From: Halichondria panicea
Lineage: Eukaryota; Porifera; Demospongiae; Suberitida; Halichondriidae
Assembly: GCF_963675165.1 (NCBI RefSeq)
Contig: NC_087382.1
Coordinates: forward strand, 5,938,315-6,002,314
Direction of reading: 5' to 3'
Length of the DNA: 64,000 nucleotides
The notes beneath the pieces are model-generated. The model was not told the origin of the DNA. It saw nothing but the letters and a program-made list of their open reading frames with translations, and did no database searches. This document shows positions 27,936-63,132 of the stretch, piece by piece (position 1 is the stretch's first letter; the number at the start of each line of letters is the position of its first letter). The position numbers and the translations under genes were made by a program.

Positions 27936-30900
27936 ATGAAGTTGCTATTTGCTGCATTCATTGTACTAGCTGAACTAGCTAGTTTAAAAGCTACTTTTGT
28001 ACATTACCACATAGTCCCTGAGAACTCCACTGCTCTGTGCCAGTACTACCACAATGGAACCTGCTTCACACTAGACCACCTCCGCACTAAAATTAAGAAC
28101 TCAGGAACGAACATTACGATCAGCTTTCTCTCGGGAGATCACCGTCTAACATGGAACATGACACTAAACTATACCGTAGTCATTCTGAACAGCGAGCAGA
28201 GTGCGATGACAGTAACAAATCGGAGTTCTCAGATTTCAAGAATCATATGCAGACCATACACACAGATTGCTTTTATAGAAATTAATTTGTTTATTTTACA
28301 TGGATTGGTGATACAAGGATGCAGAAACAGCGGTAATGGTGGTGCTATCTATCTGAAAAGTGTTCAATTGGCTACCATTGTCGAGTCGTATTTTGTTGAT
28401 AATCAAGCAATTCGTGGGGGTGCAATTTATTCAACCCAAACAGATTTGACTATACAAAACAGTACTTTTATTCACAATTTAGCCACCTCTGGCGGTGTGA
28501 TTGCAGTGAGAAGTGGTAATTGTTCAATCACCAATTCTCACTTTGTCAGGAACCAGGCTACTTTACAATATACCTATGGAGAAAATAATGGCGGCGCTAT
28601 ACACATTTACAGTGACGTTGACCACACCTGTATAGCCGATACAGAATTCATTGGAAACAAGGCTCTTAAATCTGGAGGTGCAATCTCAAACAATTTACAG
28701 GGTACTACCCGCATTATGGGGTGTTCCTTCAAGAATAACAGTGCTACTAGTGGGGGAGCTATTAGCACTATCTCATCACTACTGAGCACAAACAATGTGT
28801 TTCAGAACAACACAGCAAGAAACGGAGGTGCCATATATATTGATCTTTATGATATCAACGCAGAAGTGGTGTTCTCTGGTAACACAACACTCAGTAACAA
28901 CACTGGTATGTATGGAGGAGCAATTAGAAGCGCTGCTAGTAAAATTGTATTTTTAATGAATTCAACAGTTGTGATCAGTCACAATATAGCTAGACACGGT
29001 GGTGCGATATATTTGGAACAAAGTATTATACATGTAAACAATGTACAGACGATTCAAATTGTTGAAAACACAGCACAGAGATCAGGAGGGGGGATCTACG
29101 CTTTTCAGACCTTAATTGAAATTCAGGATGTACAAGCAAACGTGAAGTATTGCTCTGCATACATAGCAGGCAACATGGCCAAAAATGGAAGTGGAATGTA
29201 TCTTAGTGCATCAAGTTTCCGGATAGCACTACAACGCAATCTAGTAATCTACAACAACAGTGCCACACAATATGGTGGTGGTGTATACGTGGAACAGCGC
29301 TCAAGAATCAATATACAGCATTTAAGCAGTGCCGAAAGAAGTAAAGTTTTTGCTATCGTAAGTAGTAACAAAGCTTTGCGTGGAGGAGGTGTGTTTGTAT
29401 TAGACAGTGCGAGTGGGCTGGCTTGCGAAGGAATAAACTCATCGTCAGACTTACACTCTAAGGAATGCTTTCTACAAACAGCAGAACGATTCTCAGATCC
29501 AGGATCCCAAATCATGATACTATTTGTGAAGAACAAAGCTACAGAAATTGGCAATGACATTTATGGTGGACTTTTGGACAGATGTCTTATAAATCCTTCA
29601 GCTCCGAAACATCCTGACGGCACTTCGTACTTGCAAAAAATAGCTGGATTTGACTGGGCTGGTAACGATACTGTAACATCTGCTGGCTGTCTCACAGATC
29701 CAAGAGTTACCTACGGGAATGTTGCCGAGACTTCTCAATTTTTTAACCATGTTTCTTCTGACCCAGTTAGAATTTGTTTCTGTACAGACATTCATTTACC
29801 AGACTGCTATAACAAACATCCACATCCCACTGTGTCAGTAAAAAAAGGAGAGACGTTTACACTTAGTGTAGTTGCTGTGGACCAGGTGGGCAGGCCAGTC
29901 AATGCCATGATCATCAGTTCACTCCATTCAGAAAATAGAGGAAAAGGACGACTAAAGGAAGGACAGCAACATCGACGAATAAATAATAACTGCACAGAGC
30001 TCAAGTACAATTTGTACTCTGATCAAAATTTGGCATCACTAGAAGTTAACTCGATCGGTCCTTGTGGAAATGAGGGAATATCAAAGCAACAAGTAAACAT
30101 TGCATTTAAACCTTGCTCATGCCCAATAGGATTTGAAATTCTTTCAGATCCAATAGACTGCTTGTGTGACTGTGCAAATGAACTCAAGCAATACATCAGT
30201 AGCTGCTCACCAGAGAATGGCACCATTCAAGTCAACCAAAATGTTTGGATCAAGTACATCAACAACACCAACTTTACATCACATTTTATCGCACACAGTT
30301 GTCCATTTGACTACTTTGTGAAAAAGCCCGTTAACATCAGCCTTGCTAATCAAACTGAGGCAGACAAACAATGTGCCTTTAACAGAACTGGAATGCTTTG
30401 CGGTAAATGTACACAAGGACTAAGTCTAGTATTTGGTAGTACGAGATGTCTGCAATGTTCTAACTACTACCTCTTTTTGATCGTACCACTCGCTATAGCT
30501 GGTATTGCATTGGTAGCATTCATTCTGCTACTCAATATGACAGTTGCAACAGGGACCATCCATGGGCTTATTTTTTACGTCAATATACTAGCAGCCAATC
30601 GCTCAATATTCTTACTATTTGACACACCAAATTTCCTTACTGTTTTCATTTCATGGCTGAACCTTGACCTGGGGATTGAGACATGTTTCTATGAAGGTAT
30701 GGATTCTTATGGCAAGTTCTTATTGCAGCTTGTCTTCCCAGCCTATGTGTTTACTCTAATAGCCATTATTATGCTGTGGAGCAACTGTTCTCAGCCATTT
30801 GCACGCATTATTGGGAAAAGGAACCCTGAGGCTACACTCTACATGCTGATACTTCTATCCTATTCTAAACTGATTCAAATCATCATCACAGCTCTAGAGT

Positions 30901-31805
30901 ATGCAACTATCAGCTATCCAAATGGTACTCAAAAATTAGTCTGGATGTACGATGCTAACGTGCTATACTTAGATGTGAAACACATCCCAAGGTTCCTAAT
31001 AGCGATCCTCATCTTTATATTTGGAACAATCTACACTATACTGCTCCTCTTCGGTCAACTATTCAATCGCTATTCTCAGCATAGAATAATGAAATGGACT
31101 ACTCACAAATATTACATTCACTTCATGAATGCACACCATGCTTCCCTATCTGACAAACATTGCTACTGGTTGGGGCTACTACTACTTTCTAGATTAGTTT
31201 ACTACCTCATCTCTGCATTTGCTGATGAATCGATTGTCATTTTCTTTGTTGGAACATTGAGTTTTGCATTGTTGCTTTATAAGCAGAATAAGCAAGTATA
31301 CACCAAGTGGGCTGAAGATCTACTCGAAACTATTTCAATCACTAATTTAGGCATGTTGGCATTAACTACATTCTATATTAAATTCTCATTGGCAGGTGGT
31401 GAAATAAGCAGAGATCAACAAGCACTAGCTACTGTGTCTATGGCGCTCGCTTTCATTGTTTTTCTGTGTATAGTGTTTTACCACGTTCTAGAAATGTGTG
31501 GAATAAAGCTGAGTCAACTACCCAACAAAATACTAACTGTGCTCAGATGGCACCAGCACTACCAGCCAGTTCCTATCAGAGGATTTGCTGAGGACAATAA
31601 TCATGGCACAACTCAATACTCCACCTCTACTCCGTTCATAAGACCTGCAGTACCTGAACACCAACTGAGAGAGCCAGCACTGGACGAACTTAGTCCAGTA
31701 AGACCAGAAGACTACGATCCACCTCTTGCTGTGCCTCAACCACGACGCAGAGAGATTCCCACACACACTAACATTGATATTAGATCGCATGTGAACTACG
31801 TATAA
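27936..31805 (+). CDS. Pmp-repeat multi-pass membrane protein, unit A (1289 aa)
   Basis: Complete, intronless. Signal peptide (MKLLFAAFIVLAELASLKA), then the family motif HYHIVPENSTALC...GTCFTLDHL. The beta-helix (about residues 130-500) has diverse, non-identical repeats (GGAIYLKS, GGAIYST, GGAISNN, GGAIRSA, GGGIYAF, GGGVFVL). Then GNDIYGGLLDRC, a beta-sandwich-like segment (ETFTLSVVAVDQVGRPVNA), Cys-rich stalk (CSCPIGFE, CLCDCA, CGKCTQG), 8-9 membrane segments (841-1195: starting CSNYYLFLIVPLAIAG, including SWLNLDLGIETCFYEGMDSY) and a cytoplasmic tail QLREPALDELSP / PEDYDPP. It is a second subfamily, clearly diverged from copies 1-3 but with the same architecture. Followed 1.07 kb downstream by a CUB gene. 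Molecular function unknown; cell-surface receptor or adhesin inferred. Confidence 0.9.
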   Translation: MKLLFAAFIVLAELASLKATFVHYHIVPENSTALCQYYHNGTCFTLDHLRTKIKNSGTNITISFLSGDHRLTWNMTLNYTVVILNSEQSAMTVTNRSSQISRIICRPYTQIAFIEINLFILHGLVIQGCRNSGNGGAIYLKSVQLATIVESYFVDNQAIRGGAIYSTQTDLTIQNSTFIHNLATSGGVIAVRSGNCSITNSHFVRNQATLQYTYGENNGGAIHIYSDVDHTCIADTEFIGNKALKSGGAISNNLQGTTRIMGCSFKNNSATSGGAISTISSLLSTNNVFQNNTARNGGAIYIDLYDINAEVVFSGNTTLSNNTGMYGGAIRSAASKIVFLMNSTVVISHNIARHGGAIYLEQSIIHVNNVQTIQIVENTAQRSGGGIYAFQTLIEIQDVQANVKYCSAYIAGNMAKNGSGMYLSASSFRIALQRNLVIYNNSATQYGGGVYVEQRSRINIQHLSSAERSKVFAIVSSNKALRGGGVFVLDSASGLACEGINSSSDLHSKECFLQTAERFSDPGSQIMILFVKNKATEIGNDIYGGLLDRCLINPSAPKHPDGTSYLQKIAGFDWAGNDTVTSAGCLTDPRVTYGNVAETSQFFNHVSSDPVRICFCTDIHLPDCYNKHPHPTVSVKKGETFTLSVVAVDQVGRPVNAMIISSLHSENRGKGRLKEGQQHRRINNNCTELKYNLYSDQNLASLEVNSIGPCGNEGISKQQVNIAFKPCSCPIGFEILSDPIDCLCDCANELKQYISSCSPENGTIQVNQNVWIKYINNTNFTSHFIAHSCPFDYFVKKPVNISLANQTEADKQCAFNRTGMLCGKCTQGLSLVFGSTRCLQCSNYYLFLIVPLAIAGIALVAFILLLNMTVATGTIHGLIFYVNILAANRSIFLLFDTPNFLTVFISWLNLDLGIETCFYEGMDSYGKFLLQLVFPAYVFTLIAIIMLWSNCSQPFARIIGKRNPEATLYMLILLSYSKLIQIIITALEYATISYPNGTQKLVWMYDANVLYLDVKHIPRFLIAILIFIFGTIYTILLLFGQLFNRYSQHRIMKWTTHKYYIHFMNAHHASLSDKHCYWLGLLLLSRLVYYLISAFADESIVIFFVGTLSFALLLYKQNKQVYTKWAEDLLETISITNLGMLALTTFYIKFSLAGGEISRDQQALATVSMALAFIVFLCIVFYHVLEMCGIKLSQLPNKILTVLRWHQHYQPVPIRGFAEDNNHGTTQYSTSTPFIRPAVPEHQLREPALDELSPVRPEDYDPPLAVPQPRRREIPTHTNIDIRSHVNYV

Positions 31806-32879
31806 CTATAGATAAATACACATACTGTACACAGACTTGTTGTATCTTAAATTTTGAAGTACGCGTATGTATTATATTAGCAGATTTTTCGTTATGCACT
31901 GCAATAATTGCCAGCTATACTTTTCCCCTTTAACCATGATTCATCTCTACCTGTGTTTCCCCTGTTCATTTGATACTTTTCTGTTTGCAAATACGTCTCT
32001 CAGTTCAACGCTTCCTGAAAAAAAAATCGAACGTGTCTAATGGTAAGCATGCATGCACTAACAAAGCTTCTGCGTGGCGGTATATGATGGCAGGTGACCC
32101 TTCTCGGCCACCATGCATACCCTCAAGACCTATCAAAAAATAGTTTATCCACTCCAGAGAGTTCTACTGTACGTAACACACAGATTATGTGTACCATGCC
32201 ATGCCATGTAAACATAACTATTGTTTACATAGCATTAAAAGCCAAGAAACCATGGCAGAAACTTTCCCTTTAGAGAAATTTTCTTTCCATGTACACTTCC
32301 TGAAATAAACCCCACTGACTATAGATCAAAGCAGCCCACTGTATCAACAACAGCTTGCCTCTTAATCTGTGTAATAGGGAAGACTGCTAATACAACACCC
32401 ACATTACCAGGCAACTGTAAACAGAGACATAATAATTATAGCTAAGGATTAAAATTAATGTATTTTTTATAATTCTTGTAGTATATCATTGCTTTTGACA
32501 TTTACACTTGATCCTCAATAGTTGTGAGATGTGGTATAAAACTACATGCATTTTAGTGCTCTGGCTGTATTGTGAAGTGTTTCAATGGACTTTTTTAATA
32601 TTGTGGTATACATCACATTATGTGTGCTCAACTGTTAGACTATAGTCTCCATCTGTTTTTACCTCAATAATTACTGTACTGGTTTTGCGACTTTGATTTG
32701 GTGTGTACCAATTAACCACGCAGCCAGAATACTTTCACTTTGTGTTTATTGTGGTCACATGCAGGCTATCAGGTTGTACCCATGCACTGTCAACTATGAG
32801 CTTCAATCCATAATAAATACCTTGGAAATTGAGTAGATTTAGCTATCACGGTTTTATAGTACAGCTGTCAGTGAGTGTA
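31806..32879. other. Spacer between membrane gene and CUB gene, unit A
   Basis: No gene. Contains a short dispersed repeat at 32074-32112 (GTGGCGG...GGCAGGTGACCCTTCTCGGC) seen also at 40910-40949 and 57616-57655. From about 32230 to the CUB start it aligns well with 57770-58445, so the CUB promoter region is conserved between copies. Confidence 0.6.
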
Positions 32880-35800
32880 ATGAGGGGTAGAATCACCTTC
32901 CTTAGCCTGTTGCTCGTGATCGTGTTTCAATCCAGGTGAGTTTTATGCTCTGTGATTGATTGTGTAAGCGTTATATTTACGGGCGTTAACAAACTCTACA
33001 TTGCAGCAATACCATAGAAGTAAGTGTATATATCAACAGCTACGTTTATGAAATAGTAATATAGTTTCCATTAATTGTATAACTTCACTGCCATACATAA
33101 ATGATATACCGTAGCTGAGTGTTGATTCTCCCCAATCAGCCTTCTGAGGGTGGTAGGTGGATCATGCTTGCTGAACAGAATTGATGAGAATCCTTGCCAC
33201 TTCAGACACCCGTCAATCACTGACAAGCCAGGGGAAAAGTATGATATACGATATACATTATTCGATGGTAATACTATTGATTTGAATGGCCATATACATA
33301 TAACTGTAATATTAAACTCTTTATCAAGCCAGTTGTACTTTTAATTATAGTGATATAGTTAACTGCTTAATTGAAATCATCATAACTATTCCACCAAGCA
33401 ACTTTGATCTTGCTGCACTTCTCACTATATCACTGTTTCTCTTCCAGTGAGTATGGAATATACAGCACAAGGATATTGAATGGTCCGAAATGCTCCATTC
33501 GCCGTAAAAACCATCAAGTGAAGAGCATTCAAAACCTTCGTGGTGACCCTCGAGTGAAATTCATTTTTTCACCTGGTATAGAGATCGAACCACCCGTAGA
33601 GTATGTTGAATAAAAAATAATGATGTATATACAAGCATCTTTAATTTATTATGCATGCATGCTATAAAATAGCCTAGCTCCGAAATATTAAACTATAATT
33701 ATAGAAATGCATGTGGTGAAATGCATTTGGCAAGGAACCAATAAAGATTCGTATACCATCAAATAAATTTCTCTATAATTATGGAAACTGTAGCTAATTA
33801 ACTCCTGCCTCGAAGTGTATAGCCACCTTTTACTATATACTTTGATTTGCAGATATGGTAACCAAATGATAGTTATGTACAATGTCACATGTCCTTCGAA
33901 TCATGTTGCATTCTTCAATATCACCGATATGATTTTGGAGGAACCAAATTGCCCTGTCGGACTTCAGCAAAGGTGAGATGAATTCATGCATCGTATTTTT
34001 CTGACAAACGAAAACTGTTAGTTACAAAGAAGGTCATAACACCATTAGTCAACATTGAATGCTTTTAAGTTCACTCTATGTACGTATAGATGTGTGGACT
34101 ATGTACAAGTGGTACACGGTGAGAATGGGGCGTTACGACGTTATGAGAGTTGTGGCACTAACCCCAGAGAGTTCCTTATCCTTGAAGGTGAGAGGTAATG
34201 ATTGTGATGAACAGGTATAGTTTTCTAGGGTATAAATTTTGTGGAGAGTGGCGCCTCTCACCATTGTTATATTGATTATGAGCCTTGTTTTTAGATTGAA
34301 TTATTGAATCTGGCGAACTGTTCTTCCTCAAAATTACCCGCGTATAATTATAAACATTTTTTAGGTCATAAATTATAAGCATCCATTTACGCATAGGTAA
34401 TTTTCAAGTCATCTTCCGCACCAGTAACAACAACCGGTTCCCAGGGTTCAAAGCCGTTGTCATTTGTATGGAAAAAGACGGTGAGTTTTAATTGATAGGT
34501 ATACTGTATAATTATGTTTATGACGGAGGATCTGTATCACGCCATTATCTACTACAGCTGGCGGCACTGGTAGACGAAAGAGATGCGCCACCGAAGATGT
34601 TGTGAAAACTAAGTATCTACCTCAAACGGAGGAGCAGAGATTCCTTGTGTACGACCTAACCACGGCCTTCTTTGAACAACCACTGGAGAATCCTGAGGAG
34701 CGTCTGTGTGATGAGATGCTCAATCCGCCACCCTTTGACCCTCTCAATCTTCCCGTCAATGACACGGAGGACGATGATTTCAACCTCCCACAGTGTCCAA
34801 GAACAACCACCATTTCCAGAACGACTTGCAGTAAGAGGAACTCTCTATAATTATATTGTCACCATTAGCCACATTATTATTGACAACGCTTTACGCTGTT
34901 GCATCCCTCAATCTCAAACACTCCCCCCCAGACTACAGTGAAAGGAGGCTGAGTATGGCACTGGCTAACAGGGACTCTCCCAACCTTCTAGTGAGAACAG
35001 TAGTGGATGCAGTTCTCTCGTGTGTCCATAGGTGATATAGATAGCATACTTGAATTTAAGGGTATTCTGAAACTGAGTGTTAGAACATAATAACAAAATT
35101 ATTTAGCCTCAATTATAGTGATTATCTATAAAGTTGTTGATGACATGCACAAATGTGTGCCCCTACAGGCAGAGGAATTCTTATGGGGATCCACCCCAGT
35201 GTCTGTTGAGTAGAGAGGAAGAGTTTCCATGCACACCAAGAAATCCCAGGAATACAAGAATGCCTAATGCAAAGTGAGGGTATAGCTACTTGATAATGAA
35301 AGCACCGCATGTGTGCAGGTGCTGATGCCTCCGGCTCGGTGGATATTATATGCCAAAGCTATATACGTAATATAAACTACTAGTGAATTGCTAATACACA
35401 CAGAAATTATAATGTTCTTGGTAAGTTTGCTGCATTATGGGAAATGATCGACATGATTGATGCTAAAAAGGATGCCAAAAGTACAATTAGATTTTATGCA
35501 TTGAGAGGACTGAGTAAGGTCAAATGCAGGTAGTCTGTTCCATAGTCGGGGTAGTCTATTGAAGTAAAAATGCCTGGATTTGCAGTTAGAGGACCGCACA
35601 TGGCAGAGAGTAGTTTTATCCGAAGACTTGGTGTTTACATTTGAGATTGAGATATAGTTCAATATTGAAGCTGTTTGAATATGGTTCTTAAGAGAGTTTA
35701 CAAAGAACATAATGTCCGCCATCTCCAGAAAGTACATAATAGGGAGAAGATCAAGTAGTATGAGCCTATCCTTTTAATTGAGACTGGACCAGCTGCTTCC

Positions 35801-38800
35801 CACAACAAATTTAGTGGCGCGCCTCTGAATTCTTTCTAGAGCGATGAAATCTCCCACTAGCATCGGGCGCCATAGTTGAGAGCATAAGTAAGCTGAGAGC
35901 GAACTAGAGATTTGTATAAACTTTTCTTTGTGAACTGAGAGTTGGCAGGAGAGAAATTTCTTTTGAGTTGGCTCAGGATTGCATATGCTTTGGCTGAGAT
36001 GTTGTTGTGGTGATTAGACCAATTCAAACTTCGCTGAACCAGATCTCTATGACACTCTTTGACCGCGATGGGCTTACCATCCAGGGTGTAGGGCTGGACA
36101 AGGGACGGAGTAGCCAGGGGGTCGTTACGGAATTGTAGGACATTACATTTTAGTTCATTGAAGGAGAGGCTCCATTTGACGCTCCATTGGTGCAGTGTGT
36201 GTGTGTGTGTGTGTGTGTAGTCAGGCTGCTTACAGCTGCTCAAGGATCAATGAAGTGGCAAGTAAGAGTTTCTATAGGCTTCTAGTCATGTTCTCTTGGA
36301 TTTAATTCGTGGATTTTCAAAATAAAGCTTCGTTCTCGAGTTATGCCTACTTGGAATGCCATTGCAGCCTTTTCAGAAGAGCACGTAGCCAAACTTGTTT
36401 ACCGAGTGATGCTACTCTACTTAGTACTTAGCTCTGCACTAGAACGGCTAGTGGTCTAGCTGCAAGAGTGAGAAGAGAGCTGCAAGTCTCAGTGGCGTAG
36501 GCAGAGGGGGCCGGGGGGGGGCTGACGGGGCTAGAGCCCTCCCTTTTGTGCTCCATCAACTCCAAATGGAAATGTGGGCAGGGCCATCTAATGCATGCTG
36601 ATTGATGAGGAAAGGTGATGACCCGCGCCTGCCCTGGCCTAGCCTCGAAACCAGGCCGATTAAAATACGGCCGGGTACCTTTTTTTAAGCTATCAATGCA
36701 TGTATACATACATGTAAATAAGAAACATATTATTGAGAATTGCTGCTAGTAGGTAGCTATCAAACAACATGAAGAGGGCAATGCAAGTTTCAACAGAGAA
36801 GGGAGCATCAAGTTGGTCGTGATGTTTTGAACTTGGTTTCTGTACAAATGAGAGCTTCTTCTGGCTTCAGACTAGTGTGCAAGCCTTCTTGACAACACCA
36901 TAGAGGCCCACAGCTAGCCAGCAAGTCTTCTCGACAACGCAATAGAGAGCATAAGCCACAGCTTCACAGGAGACAAATATTTGTATGGAAAGAAACTAGT
37001 AAATAAACTGTTTACGGTTTAATTTTTACTAAAGTATAACGAGTCACCCAGATTCTGGTTGACTCAGTTCGCGCATGTGCACTATCACCCATGCAATGGA
37101 GATCAGGCCGTATTTTAATCGGCCTGGTCTCAAGGCTAGCCCTGGCCCTGCTCAACCGATTTGAGCCCTGCTCTTCCCAAAATCCTGGCTACGCCACTGG
37201 CAAGGCGCTACAAGCCATTAATAAGAGAATGGTTAGCCAGGCAATTTAACCCTTTCGCAACGCACAAGCCAGCATGAAAATTAGGAGGTGGGACTGGACA
37301 TTACTGCAGACACATTGTGGCAGCTTATGCAAGTGAATTCCATGACTTGTGCATGTAAGATTAATTTTTTTATTTTGCTGCATGCAAACTAGCTTCGATC
37401 CCAGGCCGAGTTTTCGCTTTTATAACGGTTAGGCAAACAACTAGTTGTTCTCCTAACCGTTATAAAAGCGAAAACTCGGCCTGGGATCAAGGCTACATGC
37501 AAACTCAAAGAGTGGGTAATGATCGACTACGATTGTTGTTAAAAACGATCGATGCCAAAAGTTCAAGTCTAAAATTAATGGCTGCCATCAGCTAAAAATT
37601 ACAGTACCGGACCCCTCGGCTGATGGCAGCCATTAATTTTAGACTTGAACTTTTGGCATCGATCGTTTTTAACAACAATCGTGGTCGATCATTACCCACT
37701 CTTTGAGTTTGCTAATGCAAAAAAATTAATGTTCATCATGATATAATGTGTGTATAAAAGCTATTAGTAGCTTTATGTTATGTAGCTTTGGCATCTCCAC
37801 CGAGGCATCAGCACCTGCGGTGCTTTCATTATGATATAATTATAGTGAAATCGGGAACTACACGACTCGAGTACAAGCAGGAAGTTCCGGACGCCCCAGA
37901 TGCCATATACGGAGCAGACAACATATGATTCGACCAATTCCAATACTCGGTGGAGATGAGAGGATAAAGTTTATTTTCTCCCCGGAAATTAGACTTGATC
38001 TAACAGAAAAGTGAGTCTGCCTTAATTTGCTTCCTTGTTATTAATTGTTGCAAGAAATTGTGCTTTGAGCTTTCCGCGCGTGGTTAATAAAAAAAGTCTG
38101 TTTTGGGAATGACACATGCTTCTAAATACATGCAGCCGTCAACAATACGTTCTGTACAACATCAGCTGCCCGGAGGGACACCTGGCATTCTTCAACATGA
38201 CTAACATTCAGCTGAAAGAGGCAAACTGCTTCAACCCGGAACAAAATCGGATGGTGTAAGTGTTTAACTATTGTATACACATGCATGTATGAAGGTGCAA
38301 TTTAATTTTTACAGGTCATTGGTACAATCATGTAATGTGTAATTTAATATATAGGTGTCAGGATTATGTGCTCATAATCAGACCTGGTTCTGGTAATAGT
38401 ACTGAAAGTTGTGGAAATACAATAATAAATCAAAACCAGAATCAACTGGAGCAAGGTACCCATATGCATGCATGTATAAGTGGGACGCAAGTGAGAATAT
38501 TGTATGCTATACAATATTGTGCATAGTCCTCTAATTTCCCACCCTATATATATAATATATAGGTACAATGAGCATTTTGTTCAAAACCAGTACGTCGAAT
38601 ATATTATCTGGATTTAAAGCCACTGTCATCTGTTTCAGACGTGAAGACGCTGATCAACCAGGTAAGAACCTACTATAATAAAATTATCGTTAAACTCGTA
38701 TTCAACCCTTTAATCAGGCCATTGTACAATGCAGTGAGTATAATAGCTCCAAAGTTGATAGCATGTGTTTCAGTCCAGCCATCTCTTAGCTTTACATTGG

Positions 38801-39600
38801 TCTGCCCGAGGTTGACTGCATGCTATCAAGTTTCTACATTTACTTCTTATAGGTCACTGCATGGCTGTTAAAAGCATGATACAATTTGCGTTTCTCACAG
38901 GTTGCACTCGACCGAGGCAACATGACAGTGAAAGGACCACTCTCAGCCCGAGACGCAAAAGGAGGAACCTCAGTGAATTTGTGAGTTATAATCAATGCGT
39001 ATAATTACTATCAGCATGCATCGACCTTATACAATACGTATTTCCACAGGGGATCATGCCTAATCCGGAAGAGATGGTTGTTATTGGCAACCTCACAAAA
39101 GCAAAGTCCGCTCTGGTGACTGAAGACAGCAATACTCAACTGGGTGAAGAACCCGTGTGTTCCGATCTACTGGCAGATCTTAACCTGCAACCCATCCCTG
39201 GGGTCACCACAAGTCCAAACTGTATACAGAGGCAAAAGAGACGGGAAAAAATTGTGCTAATCAGTGACAGTACGTATTTTAATTGGAGGCATAGTTTTCC
39301 CCGTATCATGTACTAATCATATAGGTATGTTATTGTCTGTAGGAAATCGTAACCTGACACTGTTTCGACTCTTCTTGCTTCCATACAGTGCTTGAAGACA
39401 GCGCTATATTTACTGCTATTGAGAATGAGAATGCATGCAATCCTGTTCTTAGGACTTTAGCAGAAGCTACTATTGCCTTAGTATATAGGTAAGAATAAAT
39501 TATAGTTACTGGGTATATGTCCAATTATTTCTCTTGCAGAGAGAATCCTCAACGTCTTGCTCAACTGAGGAAAAAGATTGCTGCTAATTGTACGTTGTAA
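32880..39600 (+). CDS. Secreted two-CUB-domain protein, unit A (17 exons, 677 aa)
   Basis: Exons by GT-AG sites and frame: 32880-32935, 33140-33238, 33448-33600, 33853-33972, 34090-34187, 34397-34480, 34558-34830, 34932-35031, 35169-35273, 37846-38010, 38136-38255, 38355-38455, 38563-38661, 38901-38980, 39050-39269, 39389-39488, 39540-39600; they sum to 2034 bases with no stop before TAA. Exon 1 is a signal peptide (RITFLSLLLVIVF). Exons 2-6 form a Cys-bearing lead-in and first CUB-like domain (SPGIEIEP, YGNQ, CVDYVQVV, SCG, FPGFKAVVIC); exons 9-13 form the second (YVLYNISCP, CQDYVLII, SCG, LSGFKATVIC). Basic cleavage-type sites: GRRKR in exon 7, SPRRKR in exon 14, RQKR in exon 15. No membrane anchor. 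CUB identification is by pattern only. Intron 9 holds a 2.5-kb transposon insertion. An alternative last splice (donor AATT|GTACGT) cannot be excluded. Confidence 0.8.
35405..36195 (-). mobile_element. LINE reverse transcriptase C-terminal fragment
   Basis: Minus strand 35857-36190 reads KWSLSFNELKCNVLQF...ECHRDL...NWSNHHNNISAKAY...LYKSLVRSQLTYAL, and 35435-35737 reads RHFYFNRLPRLWNRLP; together these are the thumb/C-terminal signature of CR1/Jockey-like LINEs, in two frames and without the catalytic region. Dead fragment carried in the composite insertion. Confidence 0.8.
36490..37199. mobile_element. hAT-like MITE (CAGTGGCGTAG), interrupted
   Basis: CAGTGGCGTAGGCAG at the left and CTGGCTACGCCACTG at the right; internal text (GTGCTCCATCA, GGGCCATCTAATGC) matches the copy at 22939-23211. 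GCAAG flanks both sides. It is split by the MULE-like element at 36640-37138. Confidence 0.75.
36640..37138. mobile_element. 499-bp MULE-like element with perfect 9-bp TSD
   Basis: TIRs of about 33 bases: TAGCCTCGAAACCAGGCCGA... and ...TCGGCCTGGTCTCAAGGCTA, continuing through TTAAAATACGGCC. GCCCTGGCC is duplicated at 36631-36639 and 37139-37147. Inserted inside a hAT-like MITE, so it is the younger of the two. No transposase. Confidence 0.85.
37390..37495. mobile_element. 106-bp MULE-like hairpin with perfect 9-bp TSD
   Basis: Two 44-base arms (TAGCTTCGATCCCAGGCCGA... / ...TCGGCCTGGGATCAAGGCTA) are almost perfect complements around an 18-base loop. CATGCAAAC is duplicated at 37381-37389 and 37496-37504. 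Terminal TAG(C)...(G)CTA as in the other two MULE-like elements. Confidence 0.85.
37501..37710. repeat. Near-perfect palindrome with about 92-bp arms
   Basis: AAACTCAAAGAGTGGGTAAT to CCATCAGC is mirrored by GCTGATGG to ATTACCCACTCTTTGAGTTT, with a loop of about 26 bases. The right arm corresponds to the single-copy body of the repeat at 26866-26960, so the left arm is an extra inverted copy. Confidence 0.85.
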
Positions 39601-52345: not shown

Positions 52346-52546
52346 TAATGCATATCATGGCTTCAGTAAGCCGCCTAACTGACGTGATGTGAAGCCGAAT
52401 AATGGATTTTGTTTACAAACATGACTAATCTTGTGCAATTCAAAAATGCTCTCATTTAATTGTCGGCATGACAACAAAGATCTATACCCTGTGTGACTTT
52501 TTATTGTTTTAGCTAAGTGATTTTTGAGAGAAGTTAGAAGTGAATC

Positions 52547-52553
52547 TATATAA
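52547..52553 (+). promoter_or_regulatory. TATA-like box of unit B membrane-protein gene
   Basis: TATATAA about 40 bases before the ATG, in the position of the unit A box but altered by a small insertion (CTATATAATTTATATAGC versus CTATATATATAGC). Confidence 0.35.
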
Positions 52554-52593
52554 TTTATATAGCACTGTTATTCATGGTTTTTGAGGCAGCATT

Positions 52594-55500
52594 ATGAAGT
52601 TACTATTTGTTGCATTGGTTATACTAGTTGAGCTAGCTAGTTTAAAAGCTACTTTTGTACATTACCACATAGTTCCTGAGAACTCCACTGCTCTGTGCCA
52701 GTACTACCACAATGGAACCTGCTTCACACTAGACCACCTCCACACTAAAATTAAGAACTCAGGAACGAACATTACGATCAGCTTTCTCTCGGGAGATCAC
52801 CGTCTAACATGGAACATGACACTAAACTATACCGTAGTCATTCTGAACAGCGAGCAGAGTACGATGACAGTAACAAATCGAAGTTCTCAGATTTCAAGAA
52901 TCATATGCAGACCATACACACAGATTGCTTTTGTAGAAATTAATTTGTTTAGTTTACATGGATTGGTGATACAAGGATGCAGAAACAGCGGTAATGGTGG
53001 TGCTATCTATCTGAAAAGTGTTCAATTGGCCACCATTGTCGAGTCGTATTTTGTTGATAATCAAGCAATTCGTGGGGGTGCAATTTATTCAACCCAAACA
53101 GATTTGACTGTCCAAAATAGTACTTTTATTCACAATTTAGCCACCTCTGGTGGTGCGATTGCAGTGAGAAGTGGTAATTGTTCAATCACCAATTCTCACT
53201 TTGTCAGGAACCAGGCTACTTTACAATATACCTATGGAGAAAATAATGGCGGGGCTATACACATTTACAGTGACGTTGACCACACCTGTATAGCCGATAC
53301 AGAATTCATTGGAAACAAGGCTCTTAAATCTGGAGGTGCAATCTCAAACAATTTACAGGGTACTACCCGCATTATGGGGTGTTCCTTCAAGAATAACAGT
53401 GCTACTAGTGGGGGAGCTATTAGCACTATCTCATCACTACTGAGCACAGACAATGTGTTTCAGAACAACACAGCAAGAAACGGAGGTGCCATATATATTG
53501 ATCTTTATGATATCAACACAGAAGTGGTGTTCTCTGGTAACACAACACTCAGTAACAACACTGGTATGTATGGAGGAGCAATTAGAAGCGCTGCTAGTAA
53601 AATTGTATTTCTAATGAATTCAACAGTTGTGATCAGTCACAATATAGCTAGACACGGTGGTGCGATATATTTGGAACAAAGTATTATACATGTAAACAAT
53701 GTACAGACGATTCAAATTGTTGAAAACACTGCACAGAGATCAGGAGGGGGGATCTACGCTTTTCAGACCTTAATTGAAATTCAGGATGTACAAGCAAACG
53801 TGAAGTATTGCTCTGCATACATAGCAGGCAACATGGCCAAAAATGGAAGTGGAATGTATCTTAGTGCATCAAGTTTCCGGATAGCACTACAACGCAATCT
53901 AGTAATCTACAACAACAGTGCCACACAATATGGTGGTGGTGTATACGTGGAACAGGGCTCAAGAATCAATATACAGCGTTTAAGTAGTGCCGAAAGAAGT
54001 AAAGTTTTTGCTATCGTAAGTAGTAACAAAGCTTTGCGTGGAGGAGGTGTGTTTGTATTAGACAGTGCGAGTGGGCTGGCTTGCGAAGGAATAAACTCAT
54101 CGTCAGACTTACACTCTAAGGAATGCTTTCTACAAACAGCAGAACGATTCTCAGATCCAGGATCCCAAATCATGATACTATTTGTGAAGAACAAAGCTAC
54201 AGAAATTGGCAATGACATTTATGGTGGACTTTTGGACAGATGTCTTATAAATCCTTCAGCTCCGAAACATCCTGACGGCACTTCGTACTTGCAAAAAATA
54301 GCTGGATTTGACTGGGCTGGTAACGATACTGTAACATCTGCTGGCTGTCTCACAGATCCAAGAGTTACCTACGGGAATGTTGCCGAGACTTCTCAATTTT
54401 TTAACCATGTTTCTTCTGACCCAGTTAGAATTTGTTTCTGTACGGACATTCATTTACCAGACTGCTATAACAAACATCCACATCCCACTGTGTCAGTAAA
54501 AAAAGGAGAGACGTTTACACTTAGTGTAGTTGCTGTGGACCAGGTGGGCAGGCCAGTCAATGCCATGATCATCAGTTCACTCCATTCAGAAAATAGAGGA
54601 AAAGGACGACTAAAGGAAGGACAGCAACATCGACGAATAAATAATAACTGCACAGAGCTCAAGTACAATTTGTACTCCGATCAAAATTTGGCATCACTAG
54701 AAGTTAACTCGATCGGTCCTTGTGGAAATGAGGGAATATCAAAGCAACAAGTAAACATTGCATTTAAACCTTGCTCATGCCCAATAGGATTCGAAATTCT
54801 TTCAGATCCAATAGACTGCTTGTGTGACTGTGCAAATGAACTCAAGCAATACATCAGTAGCTGCTCACCAGAGAATGGCACCATTCAAGTCAACCAAAAT
54901 GTTTGGATCAAGTACATCAACAACACCAATTTTACATCACATTTTATTGCACACAGTAGTCCATTTGACTACTTTGTGAAAAAGCCTGTTAACATCAGCC
55001 TTGCTAATCAAACTGAGGCAGACAAACAATGTGCCTTTAACAGAACTGGAATGCTTTGCGGTAAATGTACACAAGGACTAAGTCTAGTATTTGGTAGTAC
55101 GAGATGTCTGCAATGTTCTAACTACTACCTCTTCTTGATCGTACCACTCGCTATAGCTGGTATTGCATTGGTAGCATTCATTCTGCTACTCAATATGACA
55201 GTTGCAACAGGGACCATCCATGGGCTTATTTTTTACGTCAATATACTAGCAGCCAATCGCTCAATATTCTTACTATTTGACACACCAAATTTCCTTACTG
55301 TTTTCATTTCATGGCTGAACCTTGACCTGGGGATTGAGACATGTTTCTATGAAGGTATGGATTCTTATGGCAAGTTCTTATTGCAGCTTGTCTTCCCAGC
55401 CTATGTGTTTACTCTAATAGCCATTATTATGCTGTGGAGCAACTGTTCTCAGCCATTTGCACGGATTATTGGGAAAAGGAACCCTGAGGCTACACTCTAC

Positions 55501-56463
55501 ATGCTGATACTTCTATCCTATTCTAAACTGATTCAAATCATCATCACAGCTCTAGAGTATGCAACTATCAGCTATCCAAATGGTACTCAAAAAATAGTCT
55601 GGATGTACGATGCTAACGTGCTATACTTAGATGTGAAACACATCCCAAGGTTCCTAATAGCGATCCTTATCTTTATATTTGGAACAATCTACACTGTACT
55701 GCTCCTCTTCGGTCAACTATTCAATCGCTATTCTCAGCATAGAATAATGAAATGGACTACTCACAAATATTACATTCACTTCATGAATGCACACCATGCT
55801 TCCCTATCTGACAAACATCGCTACTGGTTGGGGCTACTACTACTTTCTAGATTAGTTTACTACCTCATCTCTGCATTTGCTGATGAATCGATTGTCATTT
55901 TTGTTGTTGGAACAATGGGTTTTGCATTGTTGCTTTATAAGCAGAATAAGCAAGTATACACCAAGTGGACTGAAGATCTACTCGAAACTATTTCAATCAC
56001 TAATTTAGGAATGTTGGCATTAACTACATTCTATATTAAATTCTCATTGGCAGGTGGTGAAATAAGCAGAGATCAACAAGCACTAGCTACTGTGTCTATG
56101 GCGCTCGCTTTCATTGTTTTTCTGTGTATAGTGTTTTACCACGTTCTAGAAATGTGTGGAATAAAGCTGAGTCAACTACCCAACAAAATACTAACTGTGC
56201 TCAGATGGCACCAGCACTACCAGCCAGTTCCTATCAGAGAATTTGCTGAGGACAATAATCATGGAACAACTCGATACTCCACCTCTACTCCGTTCATAAG
56301 ACCTGCAGTACCTGAACACCAACTGAGAGAGCCAGCACTGGACGAACTTAGTCCAGTAAGACCAGAAGACTACGATCCACCTCTTACTGTGCCTCAACCA
56401 CGACGCAGAGAGATTCCCACACACACTAACATTGATATTAGATTGCATGTGAACTACGTATAA
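52594..56463 (+). CDS. Pmp-repeat multi-pass membrane protein, unit B (1289 aa)
   Basis: Same length as the unit A copy with roughly 30 amino-acid differences by eye and no indels. About six differences fall in the signal peptide (MKLLFVALVILVELASLKA) and several cluster in the last two membrane segments and tail (IFVVGTMGFALL; IREFAED; IRLHVNYV); the beta-helix is nearly unchanged. Architecture as in unit A: HYHIVPENS motif, GGAI/GGGI repeats, Cys-rich stalk, 8-9 membrane segments from CSNYYLF (about 841), QLREPALDELSP tail. A Cys before PFDYFV in unit A is Ser here. The intact frame and conservative changes argue that both copies are functional. Followed 2 kb downstream by the second CUB gene. 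Confidence 0.9.
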   Translation: MKLLFVALVILVELASLKATFVHYHIVPENSTALCQYYHNGTCFTLDHLHTKIKNSGTNITISFLSGDHRLTWNMTLNYTVVILNSEQSTMTVTNRSSQISRIICRPYTQIAFVEINLFSLHGLVIQGCRNSGNGGAIYLKSVQLATIVESYFVDNQAIRGGAIYSTQTDLTVQNSTFIHNLATSGGAIAVRSGNCSITNSHFVRNQATLQYTYGENNGGAIHIYSDVDHTCIADTEFIGNKALKSGGAISNNLQGTTRIMGCSFKNNSATSGGAISTISSLLSTDNVFQNNTARNGGAIYIDLYDINTEVVFSGNTTLSNNTGMYGGAIRSAASKIVFLMNSTVVISHNIARHGGAIYLEQSIIHVNNVQTIQIVENTAQRSGGGIYAFQTLIEIQDVQANVKYCSAYIAGNMAKNGSGMYLSASSFRIALQRNLVIYNNSATQYGGGVYVEQGSRINIQRLSSAERSKVFAIVSSNKALRGGGVFVLDSASGLACEGINSSSDLHSKECFLQTAERFSDPGSQIMILFVKNKATEIGNDIYGGLLDRCLINPSAPKHPDGTSYLQKIAGFDWAGNDTVTSAGCLTDPRVTYGNVAETSQFFNHVSSDPVRICFCTDIHLPDCYNKHPHPTVSVKKGETFTLSVVAVDQVGRPVNAMIISSLHSENRGKGRLKEGQQHRRINNNCTELKYNLYSDQNLASLEVNSIGPCGNEGISKQQVNIAFKPCSCPIGFEILSDPIDCLCDCANELKQYISSCSPENGTIQVNQNVWIKYINNTNFTSHFIAHSSPFDYFVKKPVNISLANQTEADKQCAFNRTGMLCGKCTQGLSLVFGSTRCLQCSNYYLFLIVPLAIAGIALVAFILLLNMTVATGTIHGLIFYVNILAANRSIFLLFDTPNFLTVFISWLNLDLGIETCFYEGMDSYGKFLLQLVFPAYVFTLIAIIMLWSNCSQPFARIIGKRNPEATLYMLILLSYSKLIQIIITALEYATISYPNGTQKIVWMYDANVLYLDVKHIPRFLIAILIFIFGTIYTVLLLFGQLFNRYSQHRIMKWTTHKYYIHFMNAHHASLSDKHRYWLGLLLLSRLVYYLISAFADESIVIFVVGTMGFALLLYKQNKQVYTKWTEDLLETISITNLGMLALTTFYIKFSLAGGEISRDQQALATVSMALAFIVFLCIVFYHVLEMCGIKLSQLPNKILTVLRWHQHYQPVPIREFAEDNNHGTTRYSTSTPFIRPAVPEHQLREPALDELSPVRPEDYDPPLTVPQPRRREIPTHTNIDIRLHVNYV

Positions 56464-58445
56464 CTATAGATAAATACACATACTGTACATAGACTTGTTG
56501 TATCTTTTGAAGTGTGCGTATGTATTATTAGCAGATTTTTCATGATTTTTATGTTATGCACTGAAATAATTGCCAGCTATATATATCATCAAACCATGAT
56601 TCAGCTCTATACCTGTGTTCCCCTGTTCATTTATGTTTATGTTTGCAAATACGTCTCTCAGTTTTAACGCTTCCTGAAAAACAGGAGCTTTCTTGAACAC
56701 GTAGTCAACAGTATATCTGCAAACAATCCATCTAGACTAAGCTGGCAGAAATCCCATCAGTGCTATATATGCTAATGGACACTATTATATAGTGAGAAAG
56801 AGTACAGCAATGTTTTGGAGTGAATTATGGATCTATCTATACATACCTATTAAGCCAATATCTATCTTTTCATTTCACATTCGTGTCCATTCATGTATAA
56901 ACTATTTTTACATTACATTGCTTCTTCTGTTGACCTTGCATTGATACTTTTCGCTGGTCCGCGAGATTAGAATTAGCTCACGTTTTTTCAACAAGTTTCA
57001 GGGTCGAATTGACAGTTCTATGAAACAGATTGTTGAAACTAAGGTCAGAGCTAGTCTATTGAGTTCTCAATGATTCGATGCATTCTATAATTAACGCAAT
57101 GTATTCATTTTGCCAAAATGGAGATCAATGCATAGGTGAGTTGAATTTGATCCTAGAGCAACTCTTGAAGAGTAAATATATCACTAGCATATACCGTACT
57201 TCTTATAAATAAGGTGCCGCTTTTTAGAAATTATGTTTTCAAGGCTGGTGTATGAAGAACATATAGCCAATGAATTTATATGGTGCCTTATGGGAGAAAC
57301 CTCCACGTGGCACTTTTTTAGAAGGGGGTGTCTTTTAAGAAGTACATAGTACTGTATATATAGCGGGTTATTTTCGAGGCACTACATTTTCGCAGATTGT
57401 TTTATTTGGTTCAAATGACCACACCCCATACAGTACATCAACCGGAAGTAAACCAAATTTCTAAGAACTAAATAATTATTTTTAAGCAATCCTCGAAAAC
57501 ATCAAAAATGTAGTGCCTCGAAAATAACCAGCTATAATTATACCCAATCAAACGTGTCTACTGCGCTTTTAACTGTAAGCGCGCACAGCCTACAAAGCTC
57601 TGTGTCAGGTTAATTGTGGCGGTATATGATGGCAGGTGACCCTTCTCGGCCACCATACACAAGGACCCTCAAGATTTATAAAAAAAATAGTTTACTGTAC
57701 ATACCATGGCCAATGCCACGTAAACAAATTTGTTTACATTGCATAATTCAAACGGTTAAATGATCGAGCCAAGAAACTGTCCAGCCATGGCAGAAACTTT
57801 CCCTTCAAAGAATTTTCTTCCCATGCAATGGATCAATTATGGCCCAAAACCCCACTGACTATAGATCAAAGCAGCCCACTATATCAACAACAGCTTGCCT
57901 CTTTGATCTGTGTAATAGGGAAGACTGCTAATACAACACCCACATTACCAGGCAACTGTAAACAGAGACATTTATAAGGATTAAATGTATTTTTCGTATA
58001 ATTCTCGTAGTATATCATTGCTTTTGACATTTACACTCGATCCTCAGTAGTTGTGAGACATGTTATAAAACTACATTTTAGTGCTCTGGTTGCATGTATT
58101 GCGTATTTATTATCAATGGACTTTTTAGTATACATCACATTATGACATTGTGTGCTCAACTGTTAGACTATAGTCTACCATCTGTTTTTACCTCAATAAT
58201 TACTGTCTGGTTTTGCGACTTTGATTTGGTGTGTACCAATTAACTACGCAGCCAGAATACTTTCACTTCGTGTTTATTGTGGTCACATGCAGGCTATCAG
58301 GTTTTACCCACTGTCAACTACATATAGATCGATGACTATTATACTGAGCTTCAATCCATAATACCAGGAGTGCAGATAATACCGAGTTTGAAAATTGAGT
58401 AGATTTAGCTATCACGGTTTCATAGTACAGCTGTCAGTGAGTGTA
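56464..58445. other. Spacer between membrane gene and CUB gene, unit B
   Basis: No gene. About 0.9 kb (roughly 56685-57545) is absent from unit A and includes the 57366-57529 MITE. The short repeat at 57616-57655 and the conserved CUB upstream region (57770-58445) are shared with unit A. Confidence 0.6.
57366..57529. mobile_element. 164-bp MITE with 25-bp perfect TIRs
   Basis: GGTTATTTTCGAGGCACTAC...TTTT and its inverse at 57505-57529. Present only in unit B. No clear target duplication outside the arms. Confidence 0.75.
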
Positions 58446-61400
58446 ATGAGGGGTAGAATCTCCTTCCTTAGCCTGTTGCTCGTGATCGTGTTTCAAGCCA
58501 GGCGAGTTTTGTTCTCTGTGCTTGATTGTGTAAGCGTTCTATTTATGAGCGTATTTTATTTACAAACTCTAAATTGCAGCGATACCATAGACGTAAGTGT
58601 AACTAAAAAAATTACGAACAGCTATGTTTAATATATAGTTTCCATTGATTGTATAGCTTCAGCTGCCGTAAACTATATGTACATAAATAATATGCCGTAG
58701 CTGAGTGTTGTTTGATTCCCTCCAATCATGCAGCCTTCTGAGGGTGGTAGGTGGATCGTGCTTGCTGAACAGAATTGATGAGTATCCTTGCCAGTTCAGA
58801 CACCCATCAATCACAGACAAGCCAGGGGAAAAGTATGATAAAAATTAGATGGTTAACGATGAATGCATTGCCATGTAAAACTAATCAAGCCAGTTGTACT
58901 TAATTTGGAGGTAATCCAGTTTGTACTTTTATTTAGTGATTAGTTCCTTTCACCATGAATTGCCTTCAAAATAATTGTATCATTAATTTTGCTGCACTTC
59001 TCACTAAATGTTACACTATCACTGTTTCTTCCAGTGAGTATGGAATATACAGCACAAAGATATTGGATGGTCCGATATGCTCTATTCGCCGTAAAAACCA
59101 TCAAGTGAGGAGCATTCAAAACCTTGGTGATGACCCTCGAGTGAAATTCCTTTTCTCACCTGGTATAGAGATCGAGCCACCTAATCAGTATGTGGAATGT
59201 GTCCAACCATCAGTCTATTGCATTCAGTATTATGCCTATAAGAAGAGTGCATGGGTTAAATGCATTTCGCAAGAAGAAAATATTCTGTATATACAACCTT
59301 TTGAAAAACTTCTTAAAAATGAATACCTTGAAGTACGTGTAACTACCTCTTAAAATTGCTACTTTGATTTGCAGATATGGTAACCAAATGATAGTCATGT
59401 ACAATGTCACATGTCCTTCGAATCATGTTGCATTCTTCAATATCACCGATATGATTTTGGAGGAACCAAATTGCCCTGTCGGAATGCAGCAAAAGTAAGA
59501 TCACACTTAATTGTCCATTCATTGTGTTTTTCTGACTAGTTACAAAAGTCATAACTTCGTTTATTTAGCCAAAATTGATGTAAAAATTGTTGTTATTGGT
59601 TGGTAGATGTGTGGACTATGTACAAGTGGTACACGGTGAGAATGGGGGGTTAGGATCTTATGAAAGTTGTGGCACTGATCCCAGGCCGAATTATGAGCTC
59701 CTTATCTTTGAAGGTGAGGTAATGCGGTTCCATGTAGATTAATTATATTCTTAGAGTCGCAGCCCTCCACAATTTAATGAGCCTGTAATTTTTCGATTGA
59801 CTATTTTGACAAATAATTTATAATTATAAATAGATATGCAGTATAGAGCCTGTTTTAAGTCACAATAAAACATCCATTAATTTTATTGATTTTACGTAGG
59901 TAATTTTCAAGTTATCTTCCGTACCAGTAAGAACAACCGGTTTCCAGGGTTCAAAGCTGTAGTCACTTGTATGGATACAGATGGTGAGGTTTTAATTGCT
60001 AGGCTGTATGTTTATGACAGAGGATCTGTATCACGTCACTATCTACTACAGCTGCTGGTATACATAAGAGATATGCCACCAGAGATTTTGTGAAAACTAT
60101 GTATCTACCTCAAACGGAGGAGCAGAGATTCCTTGTGTATGACCTAACCACGGCCTTCTTTGAACAACCACTGGAGAATCCCAAGGAGCGTCTGTGTGAT
60201 GAGGTGCTCAATCCGCCACCCTTTGACCCTCTCAATCTCCCCGTCAATGACACAGAGGACGATGATTTCACCCTACCACAGTGCTCAAGACCAACCGCCA
60301 TTGCCAGGACGACTTGTAGTGAGAAAAATTTTGTGTTATCATCTATAGCTAATCTTTTATACAGCGTCCGGTATACAACCATAAATCATTACTGTGATAA
60401 TCATAACACACATTAACCACACAGTAATATTGATAATTATTATCATTCACAACACTTTACGCTGTCGTACCTCATGATCAATCTAACACTCCCCCCAGAC
60501 TACAGTAAAGAGAGGCTGAGTATGGCACTGGCTAACAGGGACTCTCCCAACATTCTAGTGAGGACAGTGGTGGATGCAGTTCTCTCGTGTCATAGGTGAC
60601 CTGACCAGCTGTAGCTAATATTATTATAGTAAGGGTATACGTGGGATGAGCCTCATCCCAAATCATTTATTAATTTTTGAGGTTAATGGCGTTGTGAAAA
60701 ACTGATTTTTTAGTCCAAACTGATTGACAAAAACAAAAGGAGTAGATCCAGGAAAAATTTATTTGTGTACAGTGCACTGTAAAATATGATGTGTGGTTTT
60801 GACACAAAGTGCGTGGCTATTGTGGCAAACGTGCGTTTTTTCCTGATAGTTGCCACAATAGTCACACACTTGCGTAAACCACACACCATTTTTTACAGTG
60901 TGGTTGACACGCACAATTAAATGAATGTGTACCCCTACAGGCAAACGAACTCATATGGGGAACCACCATACTGTCTGTTCAGCAGGGTACCGTGCACACC
61001 GAGATATCCAAAGAGAATTAGAATGCCTAATGCAAAGTAAGGGTCCACTAAATTGCTCCTATTGCTTTGAGTTGTGTTTTGTTAGCCAAGAGAATATAAA
61101 AATTTAATAGAAACAATATTTATTTAAGCAGCTATATATATAATTACAATCACCCCATGCACTGCTGTAAAGCATTGTGATATTCTTATCTGTATATACA
61201 GTGAGATGGGGATCTACACCACTAGAATAACAACCGGAAGTTTTGGAGACCCCATTTGTCATATACGGAGAAGAGGACATCAGATTCGTACAATCCCGAC
61301 GCTTGGTGAAAACAAGAAGATAAAGTTTATTTTCTCCCCGGGAATTAGACTTGCTCCACCAGAAAAGTAAGTTTGTCTTTTAATTATTGCTTCCCTGATA

Positions 61401-63132
61401 AATGTATTAATTGTTGCAATAAATTAATTTTGTGCTTTGATCTCTGTAGCGGATAATAAAAGTCAGTTTCTAGAGTAATTGTTGTCGCATTAGATAGTAC
61501 AGATTCTATTATATATACCTGCTTTGGGAATTATATATACATGATTTTATACATGCGTGCAGCTATGGCAACCAACAATACGTTCTGTACAACATCAGCT
61601 GCCCCAAGGGACACCTGGCATTCTTCAACATGACTAACATTCAGCTGGAAGAGGCAAACTGCTTCAACCCAAAACAAAATCGGATGGTGTAAGTGTTTAT
61701 TACCATAGCATGCACATGCACATGAAGGTGCAACGTCTATATACCGTGGGGTTGGTGCAATCATACAATGTGTGATTAAATGTTAATTACCTGTGCAATC
61801 ATACAATGTGTGATTAAATGTTAAATACCTGTCTATGTAGGTGTCGGGATTATGTGCGCATTATCAGACCAGGTTCTGGTAAAAGTACTGAAAGTTGTGG
61901 AAGTACAGTAACAAATCAAAACCAGAATCAACTAGAGCAAGGTAAATTATAAGCAGATGTATAGATACAAAAAATGTTCTGTAAATAATTATGCAGTGCA
62001 TTCATAATTATAGTCACTACTGAATACCCTATACTTAAAGGTACAATGAGCATTTTGTTCAGAACCAGTGCGTCCAATACATTCTCTGGATTTGAAGCCA
62101 CTGTCATCTGCTTTAGACGTGAAGATGCTGATCAACCAGGTAAAAACCTACTATCGTTAAATCTATATATAGCCTTTAATTGAACAGGGTCACAGCTAGT
62201 GAGTTAATGCACCCCAAAGTTGATAGCATGTGTTTCAAATCAAGCTATCTCTTTACTTTGCACGGTCTGTCCAAGGTCGACCGCTATAATTCCTTATAGG
62301 TCACTGCATGGCTGTTTCAATTTGCCTTTCTCACAGGTTGCACTCGACCGAGGCAACATGACAGTGAAATGACCACTCTCAGCTCGAGGCGCGAAAAGAG
62401 GAACCTTGATGAATTTGTGAGTTATATATAATTGAATGCATAACTATACTATCAACAAGTATCGAGTTTATTACAATACTAATTTCCACAGGGAATCATG
62501 CCTAATCCGGAAGAGATGGTTGTTATTGGCAACCTTACAAAAGCAAAGTACGCTCTGGTAACTGAAGACAGCAGTACTCGACTGGGTGAAGAGGAACTGA
62601 ACCCTGCATGTTCTGATCTACTGGCGGACATCAACGTGCAATCCATCCCTGGGGTAACCCCAATTCCAAACTGTGTGCAGAGGCAAAAGAGACAGGAAAA
62701 AATCGTGCTAATCAGTGACAGTACGTTATTTTTGAGGCTATAGTTTTACCGCACTATCTATGTCAGATGCATGACCACTAATCCTCTGCATGTTACTATA
62801 ACAAATTGATGTCTTAGTCTGGTACTGTTTTGACTCTTCTTGCTTCCTTGCAGTGGTTGAGGACAGCGCTATACTGAGTGCTATCGAGAATGAGAATGCT
62901 TGCAATCCTGTTCTTAGGAGTTTAGCAGAAGCTACTATTGCCTTAGTAGATAGGTAAGAATAGTTATGTCCTATTATGCAATAATTATGTGAGCTAACAT
63001 TTATTTTGCAGAGAGAATCCTCAACGTCTTACTGAACTGAGGAAAAGGATTGCTGCCAACTGTACGTATAAGAATACCAATGTAGATATGAGAACGTCTT
63101 TTATGCATGAAATGCTCCATGTATTATTTTAA
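58446..63132 (+). CDS. Secreted two-CUB-domain protein, unit B (17 exons, 699 aa)
   Basis: Exons: 58446-58501, 58734-58832, 59035-59187, 59375-59494, 59607-59713, 59900-59983, 60052-60318, 60499-60595, 60941-61036, 61202-61366, 61563-61688, 61841-61941, 62041-62139, 62337-62416, 62492-62720, 62854-62953, 63012-63132; sum 2100 bases, open to TAA. All exon phases equal those of unit A and length differences between coding exons are multiples of three except the last, where the stop has moved. Exon 1 is a signal peptide (RISFLSLLLVIVF). Two CUB-like domains as in unit A. The first basic site is lost (AGIHKRY versus GTGRRKRC); the second (SSRREKR) and third (RQKR) persist. Intron 1 would use a GC donor (CCAG|GCGAGT). 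If the GTACGT in exon 17 is used as a donor, the end would instead be ...NSSP near 63166. Confidence 0.8.
60775..60900. mobile_element. 126-bp hairpin MITE in CUB intron 8, unit B only
   Basis: CACTGTAAAATATGATGTGT...TGTGGCAA is mirrored by TTGCCACAATAGTCACACAC...TTTACAGTG, arms of about 54 bases. The corresponding intron of unit A is 137 bases and lacks it. Confidence 0.8.

Follow-up and report, generated by a model that had tools for sequence, protein, structure and literature searches.

A gene with two consecutive CUB-type modules in the demosponge Halichondria panicea probably arose as a chimera from two paralogous genes with one module each. The gene, here called W1, lies at 32880-39600 on the forward strand of a 64,000-nucleotide stretch of genomic DNA (contig NC_087382.1, positions 5,938,315 to 6,002,314), which we refer to as the window and which also contains a second copy, W2, at 58446-63066. 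The chimeric reading is based on the grouping of each half of W1 with different stand-alone genes, on a first exon that resembles that of one such gene (D2) and on joins that fall within phase-2 introns. On balance we lean towards a course in which the body of one sister gene moved as a class 2-2 unit, i.e. with phase-2 introns at both ends, into the phase-2 intron 1 of the other. A two-module protein would thereby have come under the promoter and signal peptide of that sister, while unfused relatives of both parents still lie next to each other about 0.3 Mb away. An initial annotation of this DNA had correctly recognised the homologous modules, their intron phases and the class 2-2 borders; its explanation by internal duplication, as well as its view of the last exon as the start of a third module, found no support.

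The model of W1, for which exon borders were placed by hand, comprises 17 exons with 2034 nt including the stop codon and encodes 677 aa; all 16 introns are of the GT-AG type. Exon 1 (32880-32935) encodes the signal peptide MRGRITFLSLLLVIVFQS and exits in phase 2. Half 1 consists of exons 2-8 (33140-33238, 33448-33600, 33853-33972, 34090-34187, 34397-34480, 34558-34830 and 34932-35031) with a lead-in, a CUB part, an RRKR site, a linker and a C-terminal exon, and its exit phases are 2,2,2,1,1,1,2. In half 2, exons 9-16 (35169-35273, 37846-38010, 38136-38255, 38355-38455, 38563-38661, 38901-38980, 39050-39269 and 39389-39488) exit in phases 2,2,2,1,1,0,1,2, hence with one added phase-0 intron compared to half 1. 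Phase 2 recurs after exons 1, 8 and 16, which makes the module a symmetrical one. This layout agrees with the position-by-position match of phases, the extra second-half intron (exons 14/15 against exon 7) and the phase-2 module boundaries described initially. A 13-nt micro-exon considered for intron 1 of W1 and W2 was rejected, as it would put exon 2 out of frame.

The homology of exons 2-8 and 9-16, likewise proposed in the initial annotation, is borne out by an alignment score of 375 for the whole halves, compared to a mean of 37.1 and a maximum of 73 in 1000 shuffles. Exon by exon, six of the seven pairs correspond directly (1000 shuffles each), with z values of 8.3 (exons 2/9), 21.1 (3/10), 18.3 (4/11), 6.0 (5/12), 15.3 (6/13) and 6.9 (8/16), and the N(E)xGxY(S/T)TR motif is found as NEYGIYSTR and NEIGNYTTR. 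The linker pair is the exception. Compared directly, exon 7 and exons 14+15 do not score above chance (313 of 1000 shuffles as high), and their homology becomes visible only through relatives (D1 against D2, score 80; half 1 of W1 against D2, score 63; 0 of 1000 shuffles as high in both cases).

Affinities of the two halves

Relatives were sought in the same genome (131 Mb, 39 contigs) using three family proteins as queries, which yielded at least 75, 68 and 31 exon-level matches, respectively, a part of which was modelled. On the minus strand of contig C6 (5673-5709 kb) five genes follow each other in the order A, C, A', D1 and D2. Each of them possesses one module, which in C and D1 is of the half-1 type and in D2 (signal exon at C6:5677361-5677419, minus strand) of the half-2 type. 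D1 is the immediate upstream neighbour of D2, with the same orientation and 2.7 kb before the D2 signal exon, an arrangement which a simple deletion could fuse. C12 (4962-4966 kb) likewise carries one module of the half-2 type, and more distant single-module members were modelled on C10, C4 and C17, in the latter case for one of at least four copies. Of the relatives with one or three modules that the initial annotation had suggested looking for, the former thus exist, while no three-module gene occurs among the genes modelled, stray matches on C17 and C4 not being included; within this modelled set, two modules are found only in W1 and W2. In front of one single-module gene on C10, two lead-in exons lie 1.1 kb apart (G000 C10:2939229-2939312 and C10:2940317-2940403), possibly as the result of a duplication of exon 2.

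The main tree was calculated from 15 module rows covering the lead-in and the CUB part. A second tree covers the whole module for 10 of these rows, omitting C17, C10a, C10b, C4a and C4b, the linker models of which looked unreliable. In the 15-row tree the first halves of W1 and W2 group with C and D1 (support 97/98) and the second halves with D2 and C12 (100/99), so that each half of W1 has its own set of separate stand-alone genes as relatives. A single clade of the four window halves is rejected with a p-value in the approximately unbiased test (p-AU) of 4.28e-5 for 15 rows and of 7.2e-49 for the 10 rows with the whole module, the latter accompanied by a long-branch warning. Judged by this rejection, the halves appear to have separated before the window gene took its present form.

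The tree therefore leaves the duplication of seven exons within W1, as put forward initially, scarcely tenable. Such a recent event would account for the homologous halves and their matching phases. However, a duplication private to W1 should render the halves each other's closest relatives, which they are not; they share 33% identity over 354 columns, compared to 71% between half 1 of W1 and D1 across the lead-in and the CUB part. Taken alone, the tree is compatible with another course, which we consider unlikely: an old two-module gene, formed by internal duplication or by fusion, could predate the divergence of the genes, the halves having split before the gene clusters. The stand-alone genes would then be later remnants, C and D1 having lost half 2, D2 and C12 half 1, and the neighbouring position of D1 and D2 is what a reciprocal deletion after tandem duplication might leave. 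Such a scenario requires more steps than a fusion, since half 1 must have been lost separately in D2 and C12, or once if these are sisters (support 83/86 in the 10-row tree, no resolution in the 15-row tree), half 2 must have been lost in C/D1, and C/D1 would have needed a new promoter and signal exon. Moreover, the models of the distant members on C10, C4 and C17 contain one module each.

The tail exons that follow the module in C and D1 point in the same direction. They are homologous to the tail of gene A (score 73, highest shuffle 37, tblastn 1e-5, for tail peptides chosen by eye, with other tail pairings near chance at 20-40 of 1000 shuffles as high). Because of this homology, one module plus tail is probably the older state of C and D1. 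Downstream of W1, no convincing match to the C, D1 and A tail exons was obtained at E values up to 1.

Signal exon, module junction and gene end

Signal-peptide exons ending in phase 2 are present in C, D1, D2 and C12, with the C/D1 type differing from the D2/C12 type. To assign the first exon of the window genes, the 150 bases upstream were compared together with exon 1 (32730-32935 in W1) using 2000 dinucleotide shuffles. Against D2, W1 scores 68 and W2 75, with shuffle maxima of 33 and 30 and no shuffle as high, while D2 and C12 score 50 against each other (0 of 2000). In contrast, W1 remains at chance level against C (17; 1261 of 2000 shuffles as high) and D1 (16; 1690 of 2000), and the values for W1 and W2 against C or D1 range from 1131 to 1690 of 2000. 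Since this region matches D2 but not C or D1, the promoter and signal exon of W1 appear to be of the half-2 type.

The putative fusion junction is intron 8 (35032-35168, phase 2), with 137 bp in W1 and 345 bp in W2. Neither a signal exon nor a tail exon was found in it by a scan and in-frame reading in either copy. Reading through the exon 8 donor leads to an immediate in-frame stop in W1 and W2 and also in C and D1. Together with the weak donor, this raises the question of whether half 1 ends right after exon 8 and half 2 is an adjacent gene with its own transcript. We judge this to be very unlikely, because the gaps hold no recognisable signal-peptide or tail exon, half 2 is conserved as coding sequence and the strong exon 9 acceptor (CCCCTACAG) is common to W1 and W2. 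Regarding selection, the ratio of nonsynonymous to synonymous substitution rates (dN/dS) between the two copies amounts to 0.39 in half 1 and 0.40 in half 2, and thus both halves are maintained as protein under purifying selection. The missing signal exon in intron 8 and the purifying selection on half 2 therefore favor a fusion over a separate half-2 gene.

Exon 17 (39540-39600, stop codon 39598-39600) had been regarded as the beginning of a third, truncated module. It is, however, unlike the lead-in exons (168 of 1000 shuffles as high against exon 2, 823 of 1000 against exon 9), and D2 and C12 carry its counterpart after their single module. In other single-module genes the resemblance to the post-module exon is modest for A, C and C4b (16, 28 and 24 of 2000 shuffles as high) and not significant for C10a and C10b (564 and 222 of 2000); the counterparts agree in position and phases. 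Given its position and phase, and its close similarity to the D2 and C12 counterparts, exon 17 corresponds to the exon that comes after the module in half-2 genes. A phase-1 donor, GTACGT, is located within it at 39590-39595 and recurs in W2 as well as in a downstream fragment described below, so that the true end of W1 may lie further downstream, beyond 39600.

The linker intron is present in all six stand-alone genes with a well-modelled linker (A, A', C, D1, D2 and C12) and in the second halves of W1 and W2, and absent from both first halves. Given its retention in all six stand-alone genes, the intron that initially seemed "extra" in half 2 is ancestral; rather than being gained there, it was lost from half 1, in which exon 7 (34558-34830) is unsplit.

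In summary, we propose that an ancestral secreted gene consisted of a signal exon, a module of seven or eight exons and a following exon, with a phase-2 intron on either side of the module. Its duplication would have given rise to half-1-type and half-2-type genes, both of which still exist separately in the genome. Exons 2-8, which form the body of a half-1 gene, would then have come into intron 1 of a half-2 gene, resulting in the order half-2 promoter and signal peptide, half-1 module, half-2 module and half-2 last exon, with the frame preserved by junctions in phase-2 introns. Subsequently, one intron would have been lost from half 1, and the duplication of a roughly 12-kb segment that includes the gene would have yielded the copies at 32.9-39.6 and 58.4-63.1 kb. 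The direction, fusion rather than later splitting, is what we infer from these comparisons.

Several observations weigh against this proposal. Exon 1 of the window genes matches C12 less well than D2 (42 and 2 of 2000 shuffles as high). The exon 8 donors are weak, GTGATA and GTGACC in the two copies, and the splicing of exon 8 to exon 9 is itself deduced from the missing signal exon in intron 8, the selection on half 2 and the junction sequence. Introns 1 and 8 of the window genes show no match above shuffles to C, D1 or D2 and hence no relic of a breakpoint. The placement of gene A is unsettled: it groups with half 2 (81/83), but neither half 1 with A (p 0.143) nor half 1 with half 2 excluding A (p 0.234) is rejected. 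Finally, all compared sequences stem from one genome.

Second copy, neighbourhood and domain identity

W2 (58446-63066, +) is a complete two-module copy that keeps the 17-exon layout of W1, with 558 of 670 aligned residues identical, which supports the W1 exon borders. Its reading frame runs on beyond the position of the W1 stop. For the dN/dS and junction analyses, an artefactual 2-nt exon placed by the aligner after exon 1 was replaced by hand with a GC-AG intron; this intron 1, in the region 58446-58733, would have the donor GCGAGT. A third piece further downstream (L003, about 7.36-7.90 kb) contains last exons only. Intron 9 of W1 harbours an insert of about 2.5 kb (35281-37844) that has terminal inverted repeats as well as nested palindromes. 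The end of this insert is matched at six further sites in the genome, and the exon 10 acceptor sits at its edge. As intron 9 of W2 measures only 165 bp, the insert probably arrived after the gene had been copied.

Upstream of W1, an intronless open reading frame of 1289 aa (27936-31805, +) contains Chlam_PMP repeats (Pfam, 2e-21) and, judged by eye, a C-terminus of the multi-helix membrane type; a phage search with part of it gave no match. The surrounding 4.3 kb block is 97.5% identical to a block at about 52356-56681 upstream of W2, compared to 82-88% in the flanks, possibly owing to a recent gene conversion.

The modules, initially assigned as CUB, are probably of this type; the CUB part spans four exons instead of three, from exon 3 (SPG motif) through exon 6. 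Against Pfam PF00431 the two halves of W1 reach 17.3 and 14.5 bits, below the cut-off of 21.4; E values up to 1 are obtained for seven of 12 family members, and Pfam returned nothing useful for tails and most single modules. An intronless CUB relative (L012 2422-2931, C6:6234422-6234931, also delimited as C6:6234443-6234934) passes the cut-off with 28.2 bits. A profile of 12 family members retrieved cubilin (6.7e-07), neuropilin-1 (0.002), TSG-6, C1s and MASP-1 from the PDB, and all nine sequences listed at E values up to 1 belong to these proteins, which we take to carry CUB domains. Alignment A2 has 12 rows, namely those of the main tree without A, C, C10a and C4a, plus one intronless relative; the canonical CUB cysteines presumably correspond to its columns C40, C89, C117 and C137. 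The family hence resembles known CUB proteins by profile and by four apparently conserved cysteines, and differs from them by a two-cysteine lead-in, one more pair of cysteines and a basic site that follows the CUB domain. By eye, half 1 has RRKR at this site, half 2 has RRKRR and RQKRR, and either RRKR or RRRR is found in C, D1, A and D2, whereas half 1 of W2 has lost its site; we assume these sites to represent furin motifs. In view of the signal peptide, the CUB-type modules and the basic sites, the W1 product is likely a secreted proprotein with two CUB modules, each of which is likely followed by cleavage at RRKR-type sites, and a role in binding or adhesion would be conceivable from the domain type.

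Relation to known systems

Judging by titles and the beginnings of abstracts, we found no paper on this gene family. Equal intron phases within a gene are, as the present case illustrates, by themselves no proof of an internal duplication. Because one genome holds the duplicated product together with relatives of each parent and with single-module cousins, the proposed fusion, the source of the signal exon, the intron loss and the duplication become testable in related species.

According to extracts of a study on exon shuffling (PMC8001218), all shuffled domain types in animals belong to class 1-1; if our reading is true, the class 2-2 unit of W1 would constitute an exception to this statement. 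As in the shuffling of symmetrical modules described in these extracts, equal phases at both ends keep the frame within an intron of the same phase, and an extracellular beta-type domain is involved (PMC8001218). The W1 unit differs in being of class 2-2, in comprising a whole gene body and in having presumably moved between paralogues of one family. With chimeric genes that arise by fusion of tandem duplicates, W1 would share the joining of two neighbouring paralogues in one frame. It differs in that the signal exon and promoter would be those of the downstream parent, and in that the body of the upstream parent apparently lies inside intron 1 of the other gene.
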